Positions 27,559 to 37,995 of a DNA stretch of 40,002 nucleotides are shown piece by piece (position 1 is the first letter of the stretch; every line of letters begins with the position of its first letter). The notes below the pieces were generated by a model that worked only from the letters and a program-made list of their open reading frames with translations, was not told the origin of the DNA and did not search any database. The translations under genes and the position numbers were made by a program. This DNA is from Omnitrophica bacterium GWA2_41_15 (GTDB lineage: Bacteria > Omnitrophota > Gorgyraeia > Gygaellales > Profunditerraquicolaceae): NCBI GenBank assembly GCA_919901915.1, contig CAKKQB010000021.1, positions 15,323 through 55,324 on the forward strand, in the 5' to 3' direction.

Positions 27559-28167
27559 ATGGATGATCTGGAATTTGTCGCGAGGTGCATAAGTAAAGAC
27601 AAGCAGGTATGGGACAAATTTTTAAACAGGTATTCCCGGCTTATATATAAGTATATCCATAGCGTTTTAAATACTAAGGGTTATTCTTTTTCCCGCGAGC
27701 ACGCCCACGATATTTTTCAGGAAATCTTTCTTTCCTTAACCAAAGATAATTTTAAAAAATTAGCCAGCTTTAAAGCCAAAAATGGCTCCAGCCTTGCCAG
27801 TTGGCTCAGGCAGGTTACGATTAATTTTACGGTAGATTATTTGCGTAAACTTAAAATTACTACGCTTTCTATAGACGATGAGGCTGGAAATGATTTCGCG
27901 TTATCAAGCGCGCTTATAGATGGCAGTCCCCATATCAGCGAGGTTTTAATTAAGGAGGAGAAAATCGGGCAGTTAGAAGATTGCGTTGAGGGGCTAAGTA
28001 TTGATGATAAATATTTTTTGGAATTGTCGCTTAATCGCGGATTAAAGCCGAATGTGTTAAAGGAGCATTTCAGGGTTTCGCGTTCAGCGATAGATATGCG
28101 TAAGGCTCGGCTCATTGATAAACTGCGGGATTGTTTTAAAACAAAAGGTTTTATGTTAGATTTTTAA
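27559..28167 (+). CDS. ECF-like RNA polymerase sigma factor
   Basis: 202 residues. The sigma region 2-like half (about 20-95) contains WDKFLNRYSRLIYKYI, the DIFQEIFLSL helix and the WLRQVTINFTVDYLRK segment. The region 4-like half (about 135-195) has the helix-turn-helix LKEHFRVSRSAIDMRKARLIDKL. No Shine-Dalgarno sequence precedes the ATG. It is the first gene of a three-gene unit with a zinc-finger protein and a CHAT-TPR protein, so its activity is probably controlled by those partners. Confidence 0.85.
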   Translation: MDDLEFVARCISKDKQVWDKFLNRYSRLIYKYIHSVLNTKGYSFSREHAHDIFQEIFLSLTKDNFKKLASFKAKNGSSLASWLRQVTINFTVDYLRKLKITTLSIDDEAGNDFALSSALIDGSPHISEVLIKEEKIGQLEDCVEGLSIDDKYFLELSLNRGLKPNVLKEHFRVSRSAIDMRKARLIDKLRDCFKTKGFMLDF

Positions 28168-28202
28168 CTTTGATACGTCTATTATAAGTGTAGAGGATAA
28201 AT

Positions 28203-28946
28203 ATGCAAGAAAAAATAGAAAAATTGATTACGATGGTTTATAGAAGATGGAAACGCGGCCAGCCAAAGCCACAAGGCCATGGTTTGGCCTCTTATGGTCA
28301 AAGCCAAAAGCCAGAAATTGGCCATTTGGATGAGGAAACCCTTGTGTGTTTTTTGGAAAATAGGCTCACTGGCCAGGAAAATGAGGAGATAAAAAAACAT
28401 CTCATCGCTTGCGATGATTGTTGTGAGTTAGTCCGGTTTAGTTTAGAGCCTATTCCTGCGGGGTTAGGCCTGCCTCAAGAGTTGCTTGAGCGCGTAAGGG
28501 GATTAAATTTACAAGAAGATAGCGCTCCTGTATTAGAGATATTTTTGAGGCTGGGAGAAAAGGTTCTTGAGATAATAAATACTACTGGTGATGTTCTTTT
28601 GGGCCAAGAGTTGGTGTCGACGCCAATATTGCGCGGCCGTGGGTTTAAAGATTTTAAGGACGAGGTTGTTATCTTGAAGGATTTTAATGATATAAGATTA
28701 GAGGTCAAGATTGAAAACAAGCAAGGCAGGGAATTTAATTTGATTATCAGCGCAAAGTGTAAAAAAACTCAGAAACCTATAAAGGATTTACGGGTTTCCC
28801 TTATTAAAGATGATTTGGAATTAGAATCTTACTTTACGCCCTTTGGTCAAGCGAGTTTTGAGCACGTGTTGTTAGGTAAATATAAGGTTCAGATATCTAC
28901 TATTGAAAGTAAACTTGCTTCTGTGTTATTAGATATAAAGGTTTGA
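28203..28946 (+). CDS. Zinc-finger anti-sigma-like protein
   Basis: 247 residues without a clear membrane helix. A zf-HC2/ZAS-like motif is formed by H41 (IGHLDEETLVCFLEN) and H66-x3-C70-x2-C73 (HLIACDDC), as in anti-sigma factors that bind ECF sigmas. The remainder has LGQEL- and LRVSLI-type segments. It ends in a beta-rich module, ESYFTPFGQASFEHVLLGKYKVQIS, resembling a carboxypeptidase-regulatory/Ig-like fold. Residues about 22-35 (PQGHGLASYGQSQK) are encoded by the second copy of the 38-bp hairpin repeat (28268-28305). It directly follows the sigma gene and ends on the start of the CHAT gene. Confidence 0.72.
   Translation: MQEKIEKLITMVYRRWKRGQPKPQGHGLASYGQSQKPEIGHLDEETLVCFLENRLTGQENEEIKKHLIACDDCCELVRFSLEPIPAGLGLPQELLERVRGLNLQEDSAPVLEIFLRLGEKVLEIINTTGDVLLGQELVSTPILRGRGFKDFKDEVVILKDFNDIRLEVKIENKQGREFNLIISAKCKKTQKPIKDLRVSLIKDDLELESYFTPFGQASFEHVLLGKYKVQISTIESKLASVLLDIKV
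28268..28305 (+). repeat. 38-bp hairpin repeat, translated copy
   Basis: Begins GCCACAAGGC(C)ATGG and ends CAAAGCC. It matches the leader repeat at 20361-20398 with about six differences, all transitions, but here it is in frame inside a coding region. Confidence 0.75.
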
Positions 28947-28951
28947 GAATA

Positions 28952-31171
28952 ATGCAGCAAAATTCGCTGGTTCTAGAAATATTAAAGCAGGATGAAGCGT
29001 TGAAAATGAGTATCTTTGAGCAAAAGGAGCTCGTTTCAACTCTAAGGCATTATAGTCAGCATCCGATTTCACTCGGAGAAATTGACAGGCTCTGCCATGA
29101 GGTAACGTCTGCCTTAAATAAGGCGGACAAAAATGGTATCCTTGATTCAGCAGCAATCAAAAATTTAATGAAAACAGGCCAGCTTCTTTGGGACCATTTA
29201 TTGACAAGACCGGTTAAAGATAGGTTAAAATCAGCGCAAGCTTTGAATTTGATTCTTTTCTTAGATGAGGAATTAATCGGTATTCCATGGGAGCTACTTT
29301 TTGACGCGGACTCATTTTTAAGTCTTAAATTTAATCTGGGCAGATTAGTAAGGACAAAGAAAGAAGCCTCTAGAATTCAGTATCGTTCTTTTTCGGGCAC
29401 TCCCAAGATGCTCATATTGGCAAATCCCACCAATGACTTGAAATCTTCTTATCTTGAAGGCGTTAATATTAAAAACCAGTTTGATCGAAAAAGACCCAGT
29501 ATACATATTGATTTTAAGTCTACCTGCATAGATAAGTTTTATGTGAAGAAGAATTTTAGTGATTATGACATTGTCCATTTTGCCGGTCACTGCGAATTTT
29601 ATCCCGGTGAGGATAAGAAGAACGGCTGGCTTTTAAGTGATGGGGTTTTTAGTGTCCGTGATATCCTTGCTATGGGCTCTACGGTTTCTTTGCCTTCTTT
29701 GGTATTTTCTAACGCGTGCTCGCCTCACGGCGAAGCCGCGGGTCAGCCTGCCGCAAGATCAGGTAATTCAATAGACGCGGATTATCAGGAAAAAAATTAT
29801 ACTTTGGCAGGCGCGTTTTTGTTTTCCGGTGTCAGGCATTATATAGGCACGATACGCAAAGTAGGAGATGAGGCCAGTTTTGGTTTTGCTAAGTATTTTT
29901 ATACTCATTTAATTTCAGGAAAATCCATAGGCGAATCGCTGCGGCTAAGCCGGCTTAGGTTAATTAAGGAATATGGTATTACATCTATTCATTGGGCAAG
30001 CTACCTGCTTTATGGGGATCCGAATTTTGCCTTATTTAAGGCCGTTTCCAAGGCGTCTTTATCTAAGATCAAAGGAGGTTTAACCCACCATAAGAAACGT
30101 TTCGCCTGGATTTCAGCTGTAGTGGTGATGTTGTTTTTATGCGTATTTCTGTATGCGTGGTTACCTACAATAAATCCCAGCACCTATTTTTTATTTTTAA
30201 AGTCCCAAAAGTTTTTTCTGAAAGGCAGAAATCTTGATACGATCTCTTATTGTAACCGGATAATTAAAAATGAGCCATTATTTTTAGCGGCATACCCTTT
30301 GCTGGGGGATACCTTTCAGAGGCTTGGTGACAAAGAAAGTTCGCTAAAGTATTATTTTGATTACGCGCGTTTAAGCGAGAAAAGAAATGATAAAAAGAAT
30401 CTGGTTTGCGCCTACGTTGGAATCGGCTGGATTTATCATTTACAAGCAGAATACGCCAAGGCGTTTGATTTTTATAACAAGGCATTGTCCTTAAGCAGGG
30501 AGAGCAAGAACAAGCTATGCGAGGCTGATGTTTTGAGAAAATTAGCTGTGTGGTATATGGACAAAAATGATAATGATAAGGCGCTTGAATTACTCACCAA
30601 AAGTTCGGAGATAAACCGTGAAAGGCAGAACATTTATAAGCATAAGTATAATTTGGCATGCGATTATTTTAATTTAGGCCTGTTGTTTACTAATAAAGAT
30701 GATTATGTAACCGCGAAGAGTTTTTATGACAAGAGTTTTAATTTGTTTACTAAGCTTAAGCTTAAATATGAGTTAAGTGACTATTATTCTAATATTGGCG
30801 AGATTTATAGTTTTCAAAAGGAATATCAGAAAGCCCTGGATTCTTATATGAAGGGTTTAGATATAGATTTAGCTTGGGGCCATAAGTTAAATATTGCCGC
30901 TGATTTTAATATGATTGGTGAACTATATATGGAGATGAATAACCTGCCTAAGGCGAAAGAGTTTTTCGATCAGGCGATTTCAGTTTTTCAGTCGATAAAC
31001 GCGCGCTTTGAGTTAGCTAACAGTTACTATGATTTAGCCGGTTTATATAAGAAATTAAATCAAAGAAATAAAGTAGTGGAATATTTGCGTTTAGCGCAAG
31101 AAATTTACCGCGAATTAGATTCAAAGCGTTATCAGGAAATAAAAAAGGAATTTTCAGTATTCACGGAATAA
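28952..31171 (+). CDS. CHAT-domain (caspase-like) TPR membrane protein
   Basis: 739 residues from the ATG at 28952; a TTG at 28943 is also possible. An N-terminal helical region leads into a CHAT peptidase-like domain with a His/Cys dyad: H213 in VHFAGHC and C256 in SNACSPHG. The domain closes with GAFLFSGVRHYIGT and SIHWASYLLYGDPNF. One transmembrane helix follows at about 383-405, then at least six tetratricopeptide-like repeats (about 410-735, e.g. AYVGIGWIYHLQAEYAKAFDFYNKAL). The peptidase would face one side and the TPR sensor the other. It overlaps or abuts the anti-sigma-like gene, which suggests that this protein is its substrate. Confidence 0.88.
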   Translation: MQQNSLVLEILKQDEALKMSIFEQKELVSTLRHYSQHPISLGEIDRLCHEVTSALNKADKNGILDSAAIKNLMKTGQLLWDHLLTRPVKDRLKSAQALNLILFLDEELIGIPWELLFDADSFLSLKFNLGRLVRTKKEASRIQYRSFSGTPKMLILANPTNDLKSSYLEGVNIKNQFDRKRPSIHIDFKSTCIDKFYVKKNFSDYDIVHFAGHCEFYPGEDKKNGWLLSDGVFSVRDILAMGSTVSLPSLVFSNACSPHGEAAGQPAARSGNSIDADYQEKNYTLAGAFLFSGVRHYIGTIRKVGDEASFGFAKYFYTHLISGKSIGESLRLSRLRLIKEYGITSIHWASYLLYGDPNFALFKAVSKASLSKIKGGLTHHKKRFAWISAVVVMLFLCVFLYAWLPTINPSTYFLFLKSQKFFLKGRNLDTISYCNRIIKNEPLFLAAYPLLGDTFQRLGDKESSLKYYFDYARLSEKRNDKKNLVCAYVGIGWIYHLQAEYAKAFDFYNKALSLSRESKNKLCEADVLRKLAVWYMDKNDNDKALELLTKSSEINRERQNIYKHKYNLACDYFNLGLLFTNKDDYVTAKSFYDKSFNLFTKLKLKYELSDYYSNIGEIYSFQKEYQKALDSYMKGLDIDLAWGHKLNIAADFNMIGELYMEMNNLPKAKEFFDQAISVFQSINARFELANSYYDLAGLYKKLNQRNKVVEYLRLAQEIYRELDSKRYQEIKKEFSVFTE

Positions 31172-32520: not shown

Positions 32521-32886
32521 TTAAGGGGTAGTTTTAGTTATTATATCAAATTGTCTGACTCTTGAATCCACCAGAAGCCCTATTTCTTGGCCTTTTTTCG
32601 CGGAATTTACAGGCGTATGTTCGATTTGCATAGATGTAACACTTTGGTTGAAATCAGTGGTAGAACCTTTTATTTTAATGGTATCCCCTGTCGTTAAGGG
32701 TGCCTGTAGCTTTACTACCGCCGCCCTTACCTTAGGAAAATAATGTGTAATTGCGCCGATAGTCTTTTCTTTTGGAGATTTCTTTTTTGCTGGCTTTTTT
32801 TTAATTTGATGTTTGCCGGCCGGTTTCTTTTTTACAGTCTCCTTTTTGGTTACTTTTTTCTTAATTTCCTTCTTTTTTAAAGCCAT
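32521..32886 (-). CDS. EF-Tu domain 2-like protein with lysine-rich N-terminal extension
   Basis: 121 residues. The first 40 or so are lysine-rich (KKKEIKKKVTKKETVKKKPAG and more), like a nucleic-acid-binding tail. The rest, IGAITHYFPKVRAAVVKLQAPLTTGDTIKIKG to MQIEHTPVNSAKKGQEIGLLV, is the beta-barrel of translation-factor domain 2, also found at the C-terminus of some U32 peptidases. Stand-alone members are annotated elongation-factor-like, with unknown role. AGGAG precedes the ATG. It is the last gene of the minus-strand operon, 12 bp after its neighbour. Confidence 0.8.
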   Translation of the reverse strand: MALKKKEIKKKVTKKETVKKKPAGKHQIKKKPAKKKSPKEKTIGAITHYFPKVRAAVVKLQAPLTTGDTIKIKGSTTDFNQSVTSMQIEHTPVNSAKKGQEIGLLVDSRVRQFDIITKTTP

Positions 32887-32898
32887 AGTTGTCTCCTG

Positions 32899-33222
32899 TC
32901 ATAAGGTTATACTGTCAGAAATCTTTGAAATTAAAGGGATTCGGCAAAGGCTGCCTTTTAACGCCCCCAGAATTCCCCATAGGCAAGTAAGGACAAAAAT
33001 CCAAAAACCAAGTACTTTTAACCAGGACAGAATCGGGATAATGGAAATAATGAAACCGATGACCTCAAAGACAAAAAGCACAAGGCCTTGTTTCGCGTGA
33101 TGAATGGCAAAATTATTGTCTTTCTTTAAAAGAAGCGTAATTACGCAGAGGAAAGATATATAGGAGATTACCGCGAAGAACCTCCCTTCGCTTATTTCTT
33201 TGTTTTGGTCTTGTTCAGACAT
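32899..33222 (-). CDS. Small membrane protein, Tic20/DUF4870-like
   Basis: 107 residues with about three hydrophobic helices: FFAVISYISFLCVITLLL, GLVLFVFEVIGFIISIIPIL and VLGFWIFVLTCLWGILGAL. The motif FAIHHAKQGLVLFVFEV between helices is characteristic of the DUF4870/Tic20-like family. The function is unknown. It lies 5 bp after the ParA-CBM48 gene and 12 bp before the EF-like gene, so it is co-transcribed. Confidence 0.75.
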   Translation of the reverse strand: MSEQDQNKEISEGRFFAVISYISFLCVITLLLKKDNNFAIHHAKQGLVLFVFEVIGFIISIIPILSWLKVLGFWIFVLTCLWGILGALKGSLCRIPLISKISDSITL

Positions 33223-33227
33223 CGTTA

Positions 33228-34325
33228 TTAGGCAGTAACTTTTATAATAGAATCCATTGAACCGTATGGATTAAGCTTTTTATGGGGGTTGGCCGCGTCT
33301 TCTATCCAGGCGCCGTCCACTACAAAACGATAACGATATGCCCCATTTTTTAAGTCAACATTTTTTTTCCATACCCCATTATCCAGGGACATTTTGCTTT
33401 CATCATCTAATTTCCACGCGTTAAATTCTCCCGCGATATATACCTCTTTTGCCTGTGGCGCGGATATCAAAAATGTGGTTTCTTTTATTTCCGGCCTTTT
33501 TTTCTTTATGATTTTATCTATCTTTTCTTTTGTAATAACGCGGTTTATTAGCGATGTACCTTCTTCCAGCGTAATGATTTCTCTGGCTAAGCTGAAATAA
33601 TCTTTTGCCCCGCGGCAGTATTTATCGTGGTCAAAGATGTGTGTTCCGCAATTTTGAGCTTCTTTTAGTTTTACGTTTACGTGGATAATATTGTTAAACA
33701 TTTTATTCTTATAATCAGATTTCATTCGTTCAAATATCTTAAAAGAGTGTCTAAGCCGTGAATCGAAGTTTGTTACAAGAATGTTCCAGCTGACGTTATG
33801 TCCAAGCCTGTCTTTTATCAGGTTTATTATGTTGATAATCTGCGCGACGCCTTCAAGGGAAAATCTGCTTGGCTCTACTGGTATAATTATTTCGTGGGAC
33901 GCGCGAATAGAGTTTATGGTAAGAATTCCTAAGTTTGGCGGGCAATCGATTAGTATATAATCGTAATCGTTATCAAGGCTGAGAAAATTATTTAATATTT
34001 CCCATAGCCGTGATTCTCTGCCGATTTCTCCCGCTAATTCCTGTTCCAGCGTGCTCAAAACAATGCTTGATGGCGCCATATGAAAATTTTTTCCTACACA
34101 CTGGATAATATCCCGGAGTTTTATTTTTTTGACGGATATTTTAGAAAGGACATCGTAGATATCTGTTTTGGATTTAATATTTAAGCCTAAAGTCGCGTGC
34201 GCTTGGGGATCCAGATCTATCAGCAGGATTTTACGGTTATTTATGGCTAAAGAAGCGGCTAGGTTTATCGCTGTAGTCGTTTTTCCGCACCCACCCTTTT
34301 GATTCGCGATGGAAATTATGCGCAT
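33228..34325 (-). CDS. ParA-family ATPase fused to a CBM48/AMPK-beta-like glycogen-binding domain
   Basis: 365 residues. Residues 1-255 form a ParA/MinD-type ATPase: deviant Walker A KGGCGKTTT (signature K10, catalytic K15), switch LLIDLDPQAHATLG, Walker B YILIDCPPNLG and the EPSRFSLEGV segment. A linker of about 25 residues leads to a C-terminal E-set/CBM48 domain (about 283-365). This includes VYIAGEFNAW (W304) and YRYRFVVDGAWIEDAANPHKKLNP, closely following the AMPK-beta glycogen-binding module. Both sugar-stacking Trp are kept, the Lys equivalent is Arg, and the Asn equivalent appears to be Ser. ParA proteins position plasmids, chromosomes or protein cargo; the domain and the neighbouring GH57 suggest an alpha-glucan as cargo or cue. 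No ParB gene is adjacent. Confidence 0.85.
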   Translation of the reverse strand: MRIISIANQKGGCGKTTTAINLAASLAINNRKILLIDLDPQAHATLGLNIKSKTDIYDVLSKISVKKIKLRDIIQCVGKNFHMAPSSIVLSTLEQELAGEIGRESRLWEILNNFLSLDNDYDYILIDCPPNLGILTINSIRASHEIIIPVEPSRFSLEGVAQIINIINLIKDRLGHNVSWNILVTNFDSRLRHSFKIFERMKSDYKNKMFNNIIHVNVKLKEAQNCGTHIFDHDKYCRGAKDYFSLAREIITLEEGTSLINRVITKEKIDKIIKKKRPEIKETTFLISAPQAKEVYIAGEFNAWKLDDESKMSLDNGVWKKNVDLKNGAYRYRFVVDGAWIEDAANPHKKLNPYGSMDSIIKVTA

Positions 34326-34341: not shown

Positions 34342-34935
34342 TTATTTTAATAGTTTTACGTTATCTAAATAGACTATACCATGTTGAGCCTTCGCGTTCC
34401 ATTCTTCCACGGTAAAGGTAAGATCTGTAATCCTTGACCAGTCGCTTATATTCTTGAATTCAGAAAGTTTTATTTTGTGATTTTGCCATTTGAGCGCGAT
34501 GTCGTTTATATATATTTCTGATTTTTCCTGGTAGGCATTGGTAAATTCTACCTTAAGATTGATTTTGTCCGGGCAGCTACTAGCTTTCTTTATGGAGAAT
34601 ATCAATTCTTTGTAGGGGTTCAAGTTTAATTTACTTAAGTTTAATGAAAAGACTTCTTTTTTGACAGGATCAAAATTAAAATTAATTTTTGCCGCGTCAG
34701 ACAACAAGACAAGCGCGGTTTGAGAAGCAAATAAATTTTTATGATAAGCGAAATTGGGCCATTTATTTTTGGATGAAACAAATAAAGCGCTAGCCAGGCC
34801 AAATACCAAAAACGCGCTTAAGAGAAAAGGCGGTCTGGAGATTTTTGACTGCGGTTTGCTCCTTTTCTTCTTTTTTGAAGAAGAAGCATCCAAATAGATT
34901 TTAGCCAGGTGTTCGTAAAGTTCTTTCTTGTCCAT
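34342..34935 (-). CDS. Membrane-anchored protein with a C-terminal beta-sandwich (carbohydrate-binding-like)
   Basis: 197 residues. A short cytoplasmic N-terminus with a Lys-rich patch (KKKKRSKPQSK) precedes one transmembrane helix (about 37-55). The extracytoplasmic part ends in VEFTNAYQEKSEIYINDIAL...WSRITDLTFTVEEWNA...GIVYLDNVKLLK, a pattern typical of galactose-binding-like/CBM11-type jellyroll domains. I do not recognise a specific family. It lies 17 bp before the ParA-CBM48 gene and 42 bp after GH57, in the same operon, which supports a sugar-related role. Confidence 0.6.
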   Translation of the reverse strand: MDKKELYEHLAKIYLDASSSKKKKRSKPQSKISRPPFLLSAFLVFGLASALFVSSKNKWPNFAYHKNLFASQTALVLLSDAAKINFNFDPVKKEVFSLNLSKLNLNPYKELIFSIKKASSCPDKINLKVEFTNAYQEKSEIYINDIALKWQNHKIKLSEFKNISDWSRITDLTFTVEEWNAKAQHGIVYLDNVKLLK

Positions 34936-34977: not shown

Positions 34978-36531
34978 TTATTCTTTTAAGTAATCAGGTA
35001 TCTCTTTGCCTAAAATTGTATAAAAATTAATAAGGTGCATGCGGAATAGTTTTTCAAAAAAACCATCTACGACGTCTTCCCCTGCCCACCAGAACCAATC
35101 GCTTCCTTCCAAGATTTGCATTTGTTTTAAGGCTTTGCCTGTACCAGCTTCCTTGTTTCCTGATTTTATGGCTTTTTCCATCTCTTCCCTTGCTTCTGCC
35201 AGCCACTCCCATGCCTTGACTTTCTGGGGCGAGCCAATCCATTTGCCGAATTCTGTATATATCCATGAACCCGCGCCAAGGCGTTTAATTTTAGACCGGG
35301 CGGGAAACTTTTTAAGGTATTCAGACACCGTAACAGTTTTGATTACTTTTGATTCAGATAATTTCTGATACAGGAGTTCCAGGAAATCATGGCCGTCGTT
35401 GGGGTAATATTCCCATGCGTTTTCTCCGTCCATGGCTAGGGTAACTAAGGCGTCGCGATTCTTAAATTCATTGTGGATATTTTCCATGTGTTTTATAAGG
35501 TCATTTACCGCACTTTCAGTTTTCCATTTATGGTAAGTAAAACCGATCAAATCTGAAAGATTTCGGTCGCGAAAAACGATATTCAGCTTACCCTCTTCCT
35601 TCTCCACAAAGTGCGGCTGGTATAAAAGGCGGGTATCCCTTTTTTTGCTTTTCAATGATTTAAATAAAATTCCCTCATCCGCGACAATCCAATTTATCCC
35701 CGCACAGATAATGAATGGTAAGATGTGGTCGCTTACCGCTTCTTCAGAAGGCCACATGCCGCAAGGAGCGATCCCGAATCTTTCTTTATAAAAAGAAACC
35801 GCGGAATCTATCTGGGCCTTGGCATCTTCTGGATATGAAAAATTAATTTTAGGCAGGGGTGTTTTGAGGTTTGCCTCTTTCGCGATTCTTGTATTGTAAA
35901 GTAAAGGCAATATAGGATGATAATAGGGGTTTACTGTAACTTCAATTTGGCCTTTTTGTATAAATTTTTTATAAGCCGGGATGATTCTGGTTAAAATTTT
36001 TAATTGTTCATTTAAGGCAGTTTGTTTTTCTTCTTCGCTGAAGAATCTTGCTTTAGCTGTCAGTTTTTTTAACTCGGGGTTGTTTTCTCTGAATTTAGGG
36101 TCAATCCAACTGAGATTAAACAAAACCTGTAAATCTAAAAAATCCTGAACGCTGAACTGGCTTTTTGCCATTTTTTTAAAATATAATTCATAATAGCGTG
36201 GGAAATAGGCGATAACAGTGTCTTTGTTGATGCTAAAGAAATTATTCAGGATAAATGTTTTTTCCTGCGTATTTAATTCGCAGGCTTGTTTGTAGGAGAG
36301 CTCCAGGAATTTATCTTTAATTTGGTGATTGTTATAATCTTCTATCTGCTCAATTAGTGAAGGAACGAGGTTGAAGGTTTGATGTATATCCGGGTATTTT
36401 TCTAAAATCTCTACCATGTCCAGATAATCTTTTGATCCATGCAAGCGCACCCATGGCGCGTCAGTCTCCTGGGTAAGGAGATTCTTGTAATAGGGCTGAT
36501 GCATGTGGAAGATAAAGGCGAGATATAACAT
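34978..36531 (-). CDS. Glycoside hydrolase family 57 (alpha-amylase/glucanotransferase-like)
   Basis: Cytoplasmic enzyme of 517 residues acting on alpha-1,4/1,6-glucans by a retaining mechanism. The start, LAFIFHMHQPYYKN, is GH57 region 1 with the conserved His. GIAPCGMWPSEEAVS is the region carrying the catalytic Glu, and LVTLAMDGENAWEYYPNDGHDFL is the region with the conserved Asp acid/base. INWIVADEGI is also typical. No signal peptide is visible. The exact specificity (amylase, amylopullulanase or branching) cannot be told by eye. It heads the minus-strand operon that includes the glycogen-binding ParA. Confidence 0.92.
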   Translation of the reverse strand: MLYLAFIFHMHQPYYKNLLTQETDAPWVRLHGSKDYLDMVEILEKYPDIHQTFNLVPSLIEQIEDYNNHQIKDKFLELSYKQACELNTQEKTFILNNFFSINKDTVIAYFPRYYELYFKKMAKSQFSVQDFLDLQVLFNLSWIDPKFRENNPELKKLTAKARFFSEEEKQTALNEQLKILTRIIPAYKKFIQKGQIEVTVNPYYHPILPLLYNTRIAKEANLKTPLPKINFSYPEDAKAQIDSAVSFYKERFGIAPCGMWPSEEAVSDHILPFIICAGINWIVADEGILFKSLKSKKRDTRLLYQPHFVEKEEGKLNIVFRDRNLSDLIGFTYHKWKTESAVNDLIKHMENIHNEFKNRDALVTLAMDGENAWEYYPNDGHDFLELLYQKLSESKVIKTVTVSEYLKKFPARSKIKRLGAGSWIYTEFGKWIGSPQKVKAWEWLAEAREEMEKAIKSGNKEAGTGKALKQMQILEGSDWFWWAGEDVVDGFFEKLFRMHLINFYTILGKEIPDYLKE

Positions 36532-36651: not shown

Positions 36652-37995
36652 TTAGAAAGTAACCTTCATTGAGCCGATGACTTGCATAGCTTTAGCGTCA
36701 TTGTTGCTGTCAAAGGCTTTACCTGGGAAAAACATACTAGTAGCTAATCCAATTTGAACATCTTCAGTGTAATCGTAAAGAGCGCAGATGTCTAACGCGC
36801 TTCCCAGTTCCTTATTACCTGTTAAAGTATAGGTTCCATAGGAAACGCCATCTGAATCGTTGTAGGGCGCGGTTAACGAAGATGCTTTTTTAGCCAGGCG
36901 ATAATAACCATAATCTAGTAATAAGGTTACATCGTTTACTGGTTTCGCGCTTGTTCCTAAATTAATTACCTGCAAGTTGCTAAAAGGAATAATAGCATGG
37001 GTAATACTATTTAGGGATTGATCGAAAAAGACTGGGTTCCAGAGTTGATATCTGCTGTCAGTAGAGACTTTATCACCTGAAAGGTAGGTGCAAGAAAGGC
37101 TTACTTGAGGAGCATATTTTTCGATTTTCTGGATACCTTTGAGATCGTAAGTAAGTATAGGTTGTAATGCCCAAGCCTTATAATCTTTTTGCGTACTGCC
37201 AGTGGTGGTGCGATCCCCGAGTTGAAACGCGCTTTCGATGGATGCTGTAAGATTATCTATAGGCTTGCCAGAGAGTAAGCCGCCTACTACGCAAAGATTA
37301 TCATTTTTATTGGTGGTGGTGGAGGCATTTTTTAGATAAAAAAGATAGCCTTCAGCTTTGGTTTCTTTTGTAATATTGTAGCTAACATTGACCCCATAGA
37401 GATCTTTATCATCGTTTTGAGGAGCTAACACGGTTCCTCTGCGGGTATTTTCTGCGACTTTAGCATAGATAGCATCCACTTCTAAAGGATCATAGTTTAA
37501 GTTTGCGCGGATGGCATCAAAGGCCTTTCTTAAACTCAAATCAGAAGGTGTGCCTGACAAAAATGTGCCGTAGTTTCTGGAATTGCTAATGATTAACCCA
37601 TTACCAAGGTCTATTTCTTGCCGGCCTAAAGTTAAGGTTAAAGGTGAATAAAGGAACTCTTTTAACGTAACATAAGCAAGGTCAATGTCAATAATGTCAA
37701 TAGTTGTGCCGCCTGCCTGGCCCCAGCTTCTTTCGTTAATTAACCTGACTGTGGTTGCTACATTATCAGTAAGGTCAGCATCAACCTTTACGCGGAGTTG
37801 AGATAAAAAGAGATTTTCTTTATCTGCATTTTTGTTTCCTGCCGCGCTATTTCCGCCTAAACTAAAGTTGTCTCTGACTATACCGCCTGCTATTAAATCG
37901 CCCCCTACCTTCATGTTCTGGACCGCTGCGTATGCGCTAAGACCGGTGCCTACTACAAACGCAAACGCTAATAAGAAAATTAATCGTTTATTCAT
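36652..37995 (-). CDS. Alginate-export-like outer-membrane porin
   Basis: 447 residues. A clear signal peptide (MNKRLIFLLAFAFVVGTGLSAYA) is followed by alternating beta-strand sequence throughout and a C-terminal ...GSMKVTF ending in Phe, the usual outer-membrane barrel signature. LRVKVDADLTDNVATTVRLINERSWG, LTLGRQEIDLGNGLIIS and AFDAIRANLNYDPLEVDAIYAKV match the alginate-export domain family. It probably forms a channel for solutes or sugars. A good Shine-Dalgarno sequence (AAGGAGG) precedes the ATG, and it is monocistronic between its own promoter and terminator. Confidence 0.82.
   Translation of the reverse strand: MNKRLIFLLAFAFVVGTGLSAYAAVQNMKVGGDLIAGGIVRDNFSLGGNSAAGNKNADKENLFLSQLRVKVDADLTDNVATTVRLINERSWGQAGGTTIDIIDIDLAYVTLKEFLYSPLTLTLGRQEIDLGNGLIISNSRNYGTFLSGTPSDLSLRKAFDAIRANLNYDPLEVDAIYAKVAENTRRGTVLAPQNDDKDLYGVNVSYNITKETKAEGYLFYLKNASTTTNKNDNLCVVGGLLSGKPIDNLTASIESAFQLGDRTTTGSTQKDYKAWALQPILTYDLKGIQKIEKYAPQVSLSCTYLSGDKVSTDSRYQLWNPVFFDQSLNSITHAIIPFSNLQVINLGTSAKPVNDVTLLLDYGYYRLAKKASSLTAPYNDSDGVSYGTYTLTGNKELGSALDICALYDYTEDVQIGLATSMFFPGKAFDSNNDAKAMQVIGSMKVTF

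Follow-up and report, generated by a model that had tools for sequence, protein, structure and literature searches.

The DNA analysed here, referred to as the window, is a stretch of 40,002 nucleotides from Omnitrophica bacterium GWA2_41_15 (GenBank assembly GCA_919901915.1, contig CAKKQB010000021.1). It carries five closely spaced genes on the minus strand, separated by 42, 16, 5 and 12 bases, and the five-gene operon with a GH57 enzyme and a membrane-anchored beta-sandwich protein that the initial annotation had proposed is thus confirmed as a run of close same-strand genes. Their order is GH57, beta-sandwich protein, ParA-CBM48 fusion, a DUF4870-like protein, and a lysine-rich protein resembling EF-Tu domain 2. 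The first gene (34978..36531, minus strand) encodes an alpha-glucan-type enzyme of 517 amino acids, assigned by Pfam (PF03065, 1.3e-66) and by the GH57 structure 9jlq in the PDB (5.5e-81); an outer-membrane porin of the Alginate_exp type (36652..37995, minus strand; Pfam 6.7e-31) lies 120 bases upstream of it, and a porin is also found upstream in loci L007, L009, L011, L013 and L014. The fourth gene (32899..33222, minus strand) encodes a small membrane protein whose similarity to DUF4870 (E 0.025) is below the Pfam cut-off, and such a gene also adjoins the fusion in L007, L008, L012, L013, L015 and others. The fifth (32521..32886, minus strand; E 0.0019, below the cut-off) is kept downstream in nine loci, the window included; its product, which joins a histone-H1-like lysine-rich tail to an EF-Tu domain-2-like fold, is conserved in the window's class and is possibly a nucleic-acid binder. 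Elsewhere in the window, the plus strand carries in a row, at 27559-31171, an ECF-like sigma factor, a weak match to zf-HC2 anti-sigma proteins and a CHAT-like protease with TPR and a membrane helix, where the sigma, CHAT and TPR assignments were made by eye.

The third gene (33228..34325, minus strand) is a single open reading frame of 365 amino acids in which a complete ParA-type ATPase domain (residues 1-250; 33576..34325) is followed by an AMPK-beta-type CBM48 (residues 281-363; 33237..33485), as had been claimed and as Pfam, structure matches, the family alignment and an AlphaFold2 model now establish. Pfam places AAA_31 at residues 1-177 (3.4e-52) and AMPK1_CBM (PF16561) at residues 291-364 (3.8e-12), the latter with 46.7 bits against a curated cut-off of 26.8 bits, and CBM_48 also matches the C-terminal part (4.9e-6). 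A missing profile match to CBM48 had been named beforehand as refuting the assignment, and the match found is above the cut-off. The ATPase domain was further identified by structure alignment with ParA/Soj (closest solved structure 8ray, 2.3e-46), by Foldseek and by the invariant residues of the family, and the CBM48 by phmmer against the AMPK beta-1 glycogen-binding domain 1z0n, its closest solved structure (1.2e-7), and by residue conservation. The AlphaFold2 model, built from a 39-member alignment, has a pLDDT of 91.6; most of each domain scores above 90, whereas the linker between them (residues 251-280) is weak.

Distribution and conserved residues of the fusion

Scanning GTDB genomes yielded full-length fusions from at least ten phyla, namely Omnitrophota, Eiseniibacteriota, Auribacterota, Rokuibacteriota, Myxococcota, Planctomycetota, Krumholzibacteriota, Gemmatimonadota, Pseudomonadota and Nitrospirota, although match numbers from this peptide-seeded scan are not frequencies. 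By hand tally the fusion is present in about 106 of the 145 sampled Omnitrophota genomes, and its presence in close relatives is borne out by these genomes and by 41 aligned proteins of the same architecture. Chance fusion and assembly artefact are ruled out by the many independent genomes with identical architecture; most of the records are metagenome-assembled genomes, and binning error is unlikely because independent genomes agree on the fusion. Some Omnitrophota matches were limited to residues 1-255 and seemed to be CBM-less, but those that were read have the CBM beyond a longer linker, so that loss of the domain is ruled out for them. The fusion is ancient and, being common to ten phyla or more, has a generality that could not be seen from the window alone. 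Within the open-access literature, we found no published description of a ParA with CBM48 or in connection with glycogen.

The beta subunit of AMPK contacts carbohydrate through W100, K126, W133, L146, T148 and N150, and the residues mutated in AMPK-beta match the glucan contacts that are kept in the fusions (PMC2642990, PMC4032982). The corresponding residues in the window are W304 (codon 33414-33416), R333, W340 (codon 33306-33308), Y354, S356 and D358. Both sugar-stacking tryptophans are thus retained, as was first noted, and each is Trp in 41/41 aligned fusions. The K126 counterpart is Arg or Lys in 40/41, and the N150 counterpart is Asn or Asp in 40/41, with Asn in most relatives and Asp in the window; the L146 position mostly holds Phe, Tyr or Leu, and the T148 position is variable among the 41. 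Within the set W100/K126/W133/L146/N150, three of the five contacts in the window have undergone similar-type substitutions (K to R, L to Y and N to D). At the level of sequence, this conservation is strong evidence for selection on a sugar site.

The ATPase domain has the motifs expected of a ParA, with an NQKGGCGKT Walker A containing the signature lysine, D37xD39PQ and an IDCPP Walker B, and K10, G14, K15, D37, D39, D127 and P130 are invariant in the fusion alignment; the Cys of the P-loop (GGCG) is in part a product of selection, because the scan was seeded with short query peptides including NQKGGCGK. At the position that we take to be that of the second conserved ParA DNA-binding arginine, the window fusion has Lys (NVKL for NVRL). 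R190 occupies the position of one conserved DNA-binding arginine of ParA and is kept in 40/41 fusions, and conserved basic residues are known to serve the non-specific DNA binding of ParA (PMC7229837). The best Foldseek matches of the domain are Soj/ParA proteins (1e-24 to 1e-27), and there is weak similarity to BcsQ models.

In a tree of ParA domains, the 18 Soj-type ParAs of chromosomal origin, among them the one of this genome, group in a single clade with 100/100 support, and all 60 fusions stand opposite to it together with two CBM-less lineages (L034/L035 and L045/L048). The CBM label requires 3 changes on this tree versus 19.7 in shuffles, which fits a single gain followed by two losses, with the deep forks poorly resolved. 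The ParA domains of the fusions belong to a subfamily separate from chromosomal ParA/Soj. This separate clade, together with a second ParA-ParB pair on another contig of the same genome, whose ParB has EKRALGKGLSALIPEKE, rules out a chromosomal ParA with an added domain. In Nitrospirota, the loci L045 and L048 lack the CBM but retain the wider operon, with a MerR-type gene, ParA, a tagged partner and a further ORF; thus, not every lineage needs the CBM.

Partner proteins and link to alpha-glucan metabolism

In most lineages the gene that follows the fusion opens with a conserved tag (consensus RGLxDVSHxFLS), which over 31 loci reads [K/R]-x-[L/I]-x-D-[V/I]-[S/A]-H-x-F-L-S, with F in 30/31. In Eisenbacteria, Rokubacteria and one Myxococcota genome it takes the form LGRGL-x-(D/E)-V-S preceded by basic residues, much like the ordinary ParBs that we compared, which begin with basic residues and LG(R/K)GL. 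The tag resembles the ParA-activating peptide of ParB (LGRGL). Activators of ParA/MinD ATPases are known to be short basic N-terminal peptides joined to interaction domains of many kinds, some of which bind membranes (PMC7993993; see also PMC10241942, PMC12462528). In a six-frame reading of 1.42 Mb, a relaxed form of the motif turned up at 30 places, 22 of which are in the gene beside ParA. When a tag profile was run on 16 genomes, the ParA-adjacent gene ranked first in all 15 that gave a match, and in four genomes outside the profile the best match lay directly downstream of the fusion (6.8e-9 in G099; 0.04-0.07 in G064, G020 and G048). No second tagged protein, which might have been the cargo, appeared at E<0.01 in the 16 whole genomes, so that identification of the cargo by its tag is ruled out there, and the profile had no match in the genome studied here. 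By Pfam, the fusion operon contains no ParB; the initial description of it as lacking ParB is literally true of the operon, but it misses that most phyla have a partner with a ParB-like tag.

The bodies behind the tag are unrelated among lineages, some of them without an assigned domain, and they vary while ParA-CBM stays constant. In several phyla the body is FleN-like with a P-loop that is degenerate in most rows (L017 against FleN 5j1j, 7e-9), and in L027 it is a MerR-type HTH with a coiled coil. Several further genes recur in these neighbourhoods. Behind the tagged partner, many lineages have a third ORF of about 200-265 amino acids (for example L021:9940-10737, L019:10165-10809, L103:2305-2970 and L115:6771-7364); it is without a Pfam match, by eye resembles PD-(D/E)XK proteins, and in deep Omnitrophota often has SFFYKMGxLSEEE at its end. 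A MerR/MlrA-type regulator (RQLSYWRKTGLVVP...) is conserved upstream of ParA in Myxococcota, Pseudomonadota and Nitrospirota (L022, L024, L041, L042, L043, L045, L047, L048, L057). Lineage-specific neighbours include a CorC/HlyC-like pair (L106, L110, L116, L117) and NadD with ApbE-like genes (L107, L113, L115), both recognised by eye, and a DUF212 PAP2-like gene found by Pfam (L033, L037, L050).

In the window's class, the protein conserved beside the fusion is the membrane-anchored one (34342..34935, minus strand). According to AlphaFold2, it consists of a basic N-terminal helix (residues 3-17, KKELYEHLAKIYLDASSSKKKKR), a transmembrane helix (37-57) and a beta-sandwich (74-196) modelled for the most part at a pLDDT above 90. 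The best Foldseek matches are CBM11 (6r31/1v0a, 1e-6) and then other CBM jelly rolls; whole-model TM-scores are modest (0.44-0.51), an effect in part of the disordered and membrane segments that the model contains. A topology with the N-terminus in the cytoplasm and the sandwich in the periplasm is suggested by the many lysines at the N-terminal end. Aligned in the expected register, EHLAxxYLD of the N-terminus falls on DVSHxFLS of the tag in a weak profile match (12 columns, P 0.0046, HHalign probability only 7.6%), and we consider the protein the probable ATPase-activating partner, a counterpart of the tagged proteins, which for the window's own clade further qualifies the idea of an operon lacking ParB.

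The proposed linkage with GH57 is real in 27 of the roughly 106 fusion-bearing Omnitrophota genomes, but it is confined to five related families (f1, f4, f5, f6 and f19). Among 101 neighbour genes of 19 other fusions there was no enrichment of alpha-glucan functions, and an alpha-glucan neighbourhood throughout the family is thereby ruled out. In another Omnitrophota genome (L032), the genes beside the fusion include those for GH77, a GH57/DUF3536 protein and glycogen phosphorylase. The suggested co-occurrence with glycogen genes was counted over whole genomes: by hand tally and in tests that ignore kinship among genomes, glycogen synthase was found in 98 of 106 fusion genomes vs 28 of 39 without the fusion (Fisher p 0.004), and for full-length phosphorylase the counts were 37 of 106 vs 1 of 39 (p 3e-5). 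Among fusion genomes that lack a clear synthase, a match to phosphorylase was seen in five, and one (G119) has neither, so that nearly all fusion-bearing Omnitrophota have one enzyme or the other. Free AMPK1_CBM genes of about 100-140 amino acids directly adjoin glycogen synthase in many deep Omnitrophota. The genome studied here also encodes a free AMPK1_CBM protein of 98 amino acids (L005:1432-1728, contig C63; 1.3e-15), and unlike in deep Omnitrophota its gene adjoins LpxA/LpxI-like genes, as judged by eye.

Possible roles of the fusion and its relation to known systems

The fusion is most likely a ParA-type ATPase with an activating partner, for which alpha-glucan serves as cargo or signal. 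By analogy with known ParA biology, the ATP-bound dimer would bind the nucleoid non-specifically, while its two CBM48 domains, if they act as in AMPK, would bind branched alpha-glucan (glycogen). ParB and PomX trigger hydrolysis by their ATPases, and the same has been proposed for McdB and TlpT; likewise, the basic N-terminal peptide of the partner would dock on the dimer and cause ATP hydrolysis and release. In the window's clade, the activating peptide would sit on the cytoplasmic side of the inner membrane, on a protein with a carbohydrate-binding-module-like outer part, and the GH57 enzyme would probably be co-expressed with the fusion. The outcome would be that glucan granules stay attached to the nucleoid or are distributed over it, and that the partner controls their release. 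That granules are tethered to the nucleoid and freed when the partner acts seems to us only a little short of evenly balanced. The broader proposal is more doubtful and is advanced tentatively: a nucleoid-based ParA system for a storage polysaccharide, which tethers glycogen, spaces it or shares it between daughters in at least ten phyla, and in which the cargo module is built into the ATPase and the activator has been swapped among soluble, DNA-binding and membrane bodies. To our knowledge, the cargo in ParA systems is occupied by the activator and not by ParA, and the location of the putative cargo domain on the ATPase speaks against positioning, as does the dispensability of the CBM in L045 and L048, which retain the tagged partner. 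The absence of alpha-glucan genes beside the fusion outside the five related families, and the Asp at the N150 position of the window, also weigh against it. We thus regard granule positioning as a good hypothesis and not as a result.

The same proteins could instead form a glycogen sensor, in keeping with the other possibility raised by the initial annotation, namely that ATPase cycling depends on glucan. CBM48 would then respond to how much glucan is stored or how branched it is and alter the ATPase cycle, and the partner, be it a pseudo-FleN, a MerR-type protein or a membrane protein, would relay the signal. The AMPK-beta CBM is itself an allosteric glycogen sensor (PMC2642990), and a constant ParA-CBM with a variable partner, a FleN-like pseudo-ATPase (L017) and a MerR-type HTH (L027) among the partner bodies, and MerR genes upstream in several loci would all suit such a role. 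A plain sensor would need neither the hydrolysis residues of ParA nor a DNA-binding arginine, both of which are kept (R190, 40/41), and no regulated target was seen in the loci, for which reasons we consider the sensor rather unlikely. We find it improbable that CBM48 has ceased to bind glucan and now serves protein-protein contacts or dimer docking, with some other cargo such as a membrane complex. The lack of alpha-glucan bias among neighbours outside the window's clade would agree with this, as would the two lineages without a CBM, one of which retains the remaining operon; against it, the sugar contacts, which a scaffold would not require, are among the most conserved residues of the domain (W304 and W340, 41/41).

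A role in envelope polysaccharide has a precedent in BcsQ, a MinD-like protein that works with cellulose synthase. Here, the ATPase would organise a membrane or export machine, of which the periplasmic CBM11-like partner and the porin would be the working parts. The membrane partner and the conserved upstream porin in the window's class point in this direction, as does the weak similarity to BcsQ models; however, the partner is soluble in deep Omnitrophota and in other phyla, where neither porin nor membrane protein is conserved, and the best relatives of the ParA domain are Soj/ParA and not BcsQ, which makes this role very improbable. Bacteria may use the fusion and its partner to monitor their sugar reserves or to place them within the cell. 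ParA/MinD ATPases position chromosomes, plasmids, carboxysomes, chemoreceptors, flagella and the division site, and we found no such system for a storage polysaccharide in the open-access literature. The fusion family offers a testable candidate, with a glucan-binding-type domain and an activating tag in many phyla. It would bear on whether glycogen is shared out by bacteria at division or inherited by chance only, and on how ParA systems gain cargoes, here with one short peptide moved among partners.

Among known systems, the fusion shares with ParABS (Soj/Spo0J) the sequence and fold of ParA and, in several lineages, an LGRGL-like N-terminus of the partner, but it has no ParB CTPase, carries CBM48 on ParA and belongs to a clade apart from chromosomal ParAs. 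The combination, present in most lineages, of a ParA-like ATPase with a non-homologous, N-terminally tagged partner is also that of McdAB, PpfA-TlpT and PomXYZ (PMC7993993, PMC10241942); unlike in these, the cargo-type module is on the ATPase and not on the partner, the putative cargo is a polysaccharide, and no carboxysome or chemotaxis genes were seen near the fusion. The C-terminal sequence and contact set correspond to those of the AMPK beta-subunit (PF16561, CBM48), although the domain is here attached to a ParA ATPase and not part of a kinase complex. The partner body in several phyla is like the MinD-like ATPases FlhG/FleN, from which it differs by a mostly degenerate P-loop, by the ParB-like tag and by its place beside ParA-CBM instead of flagellar genes.
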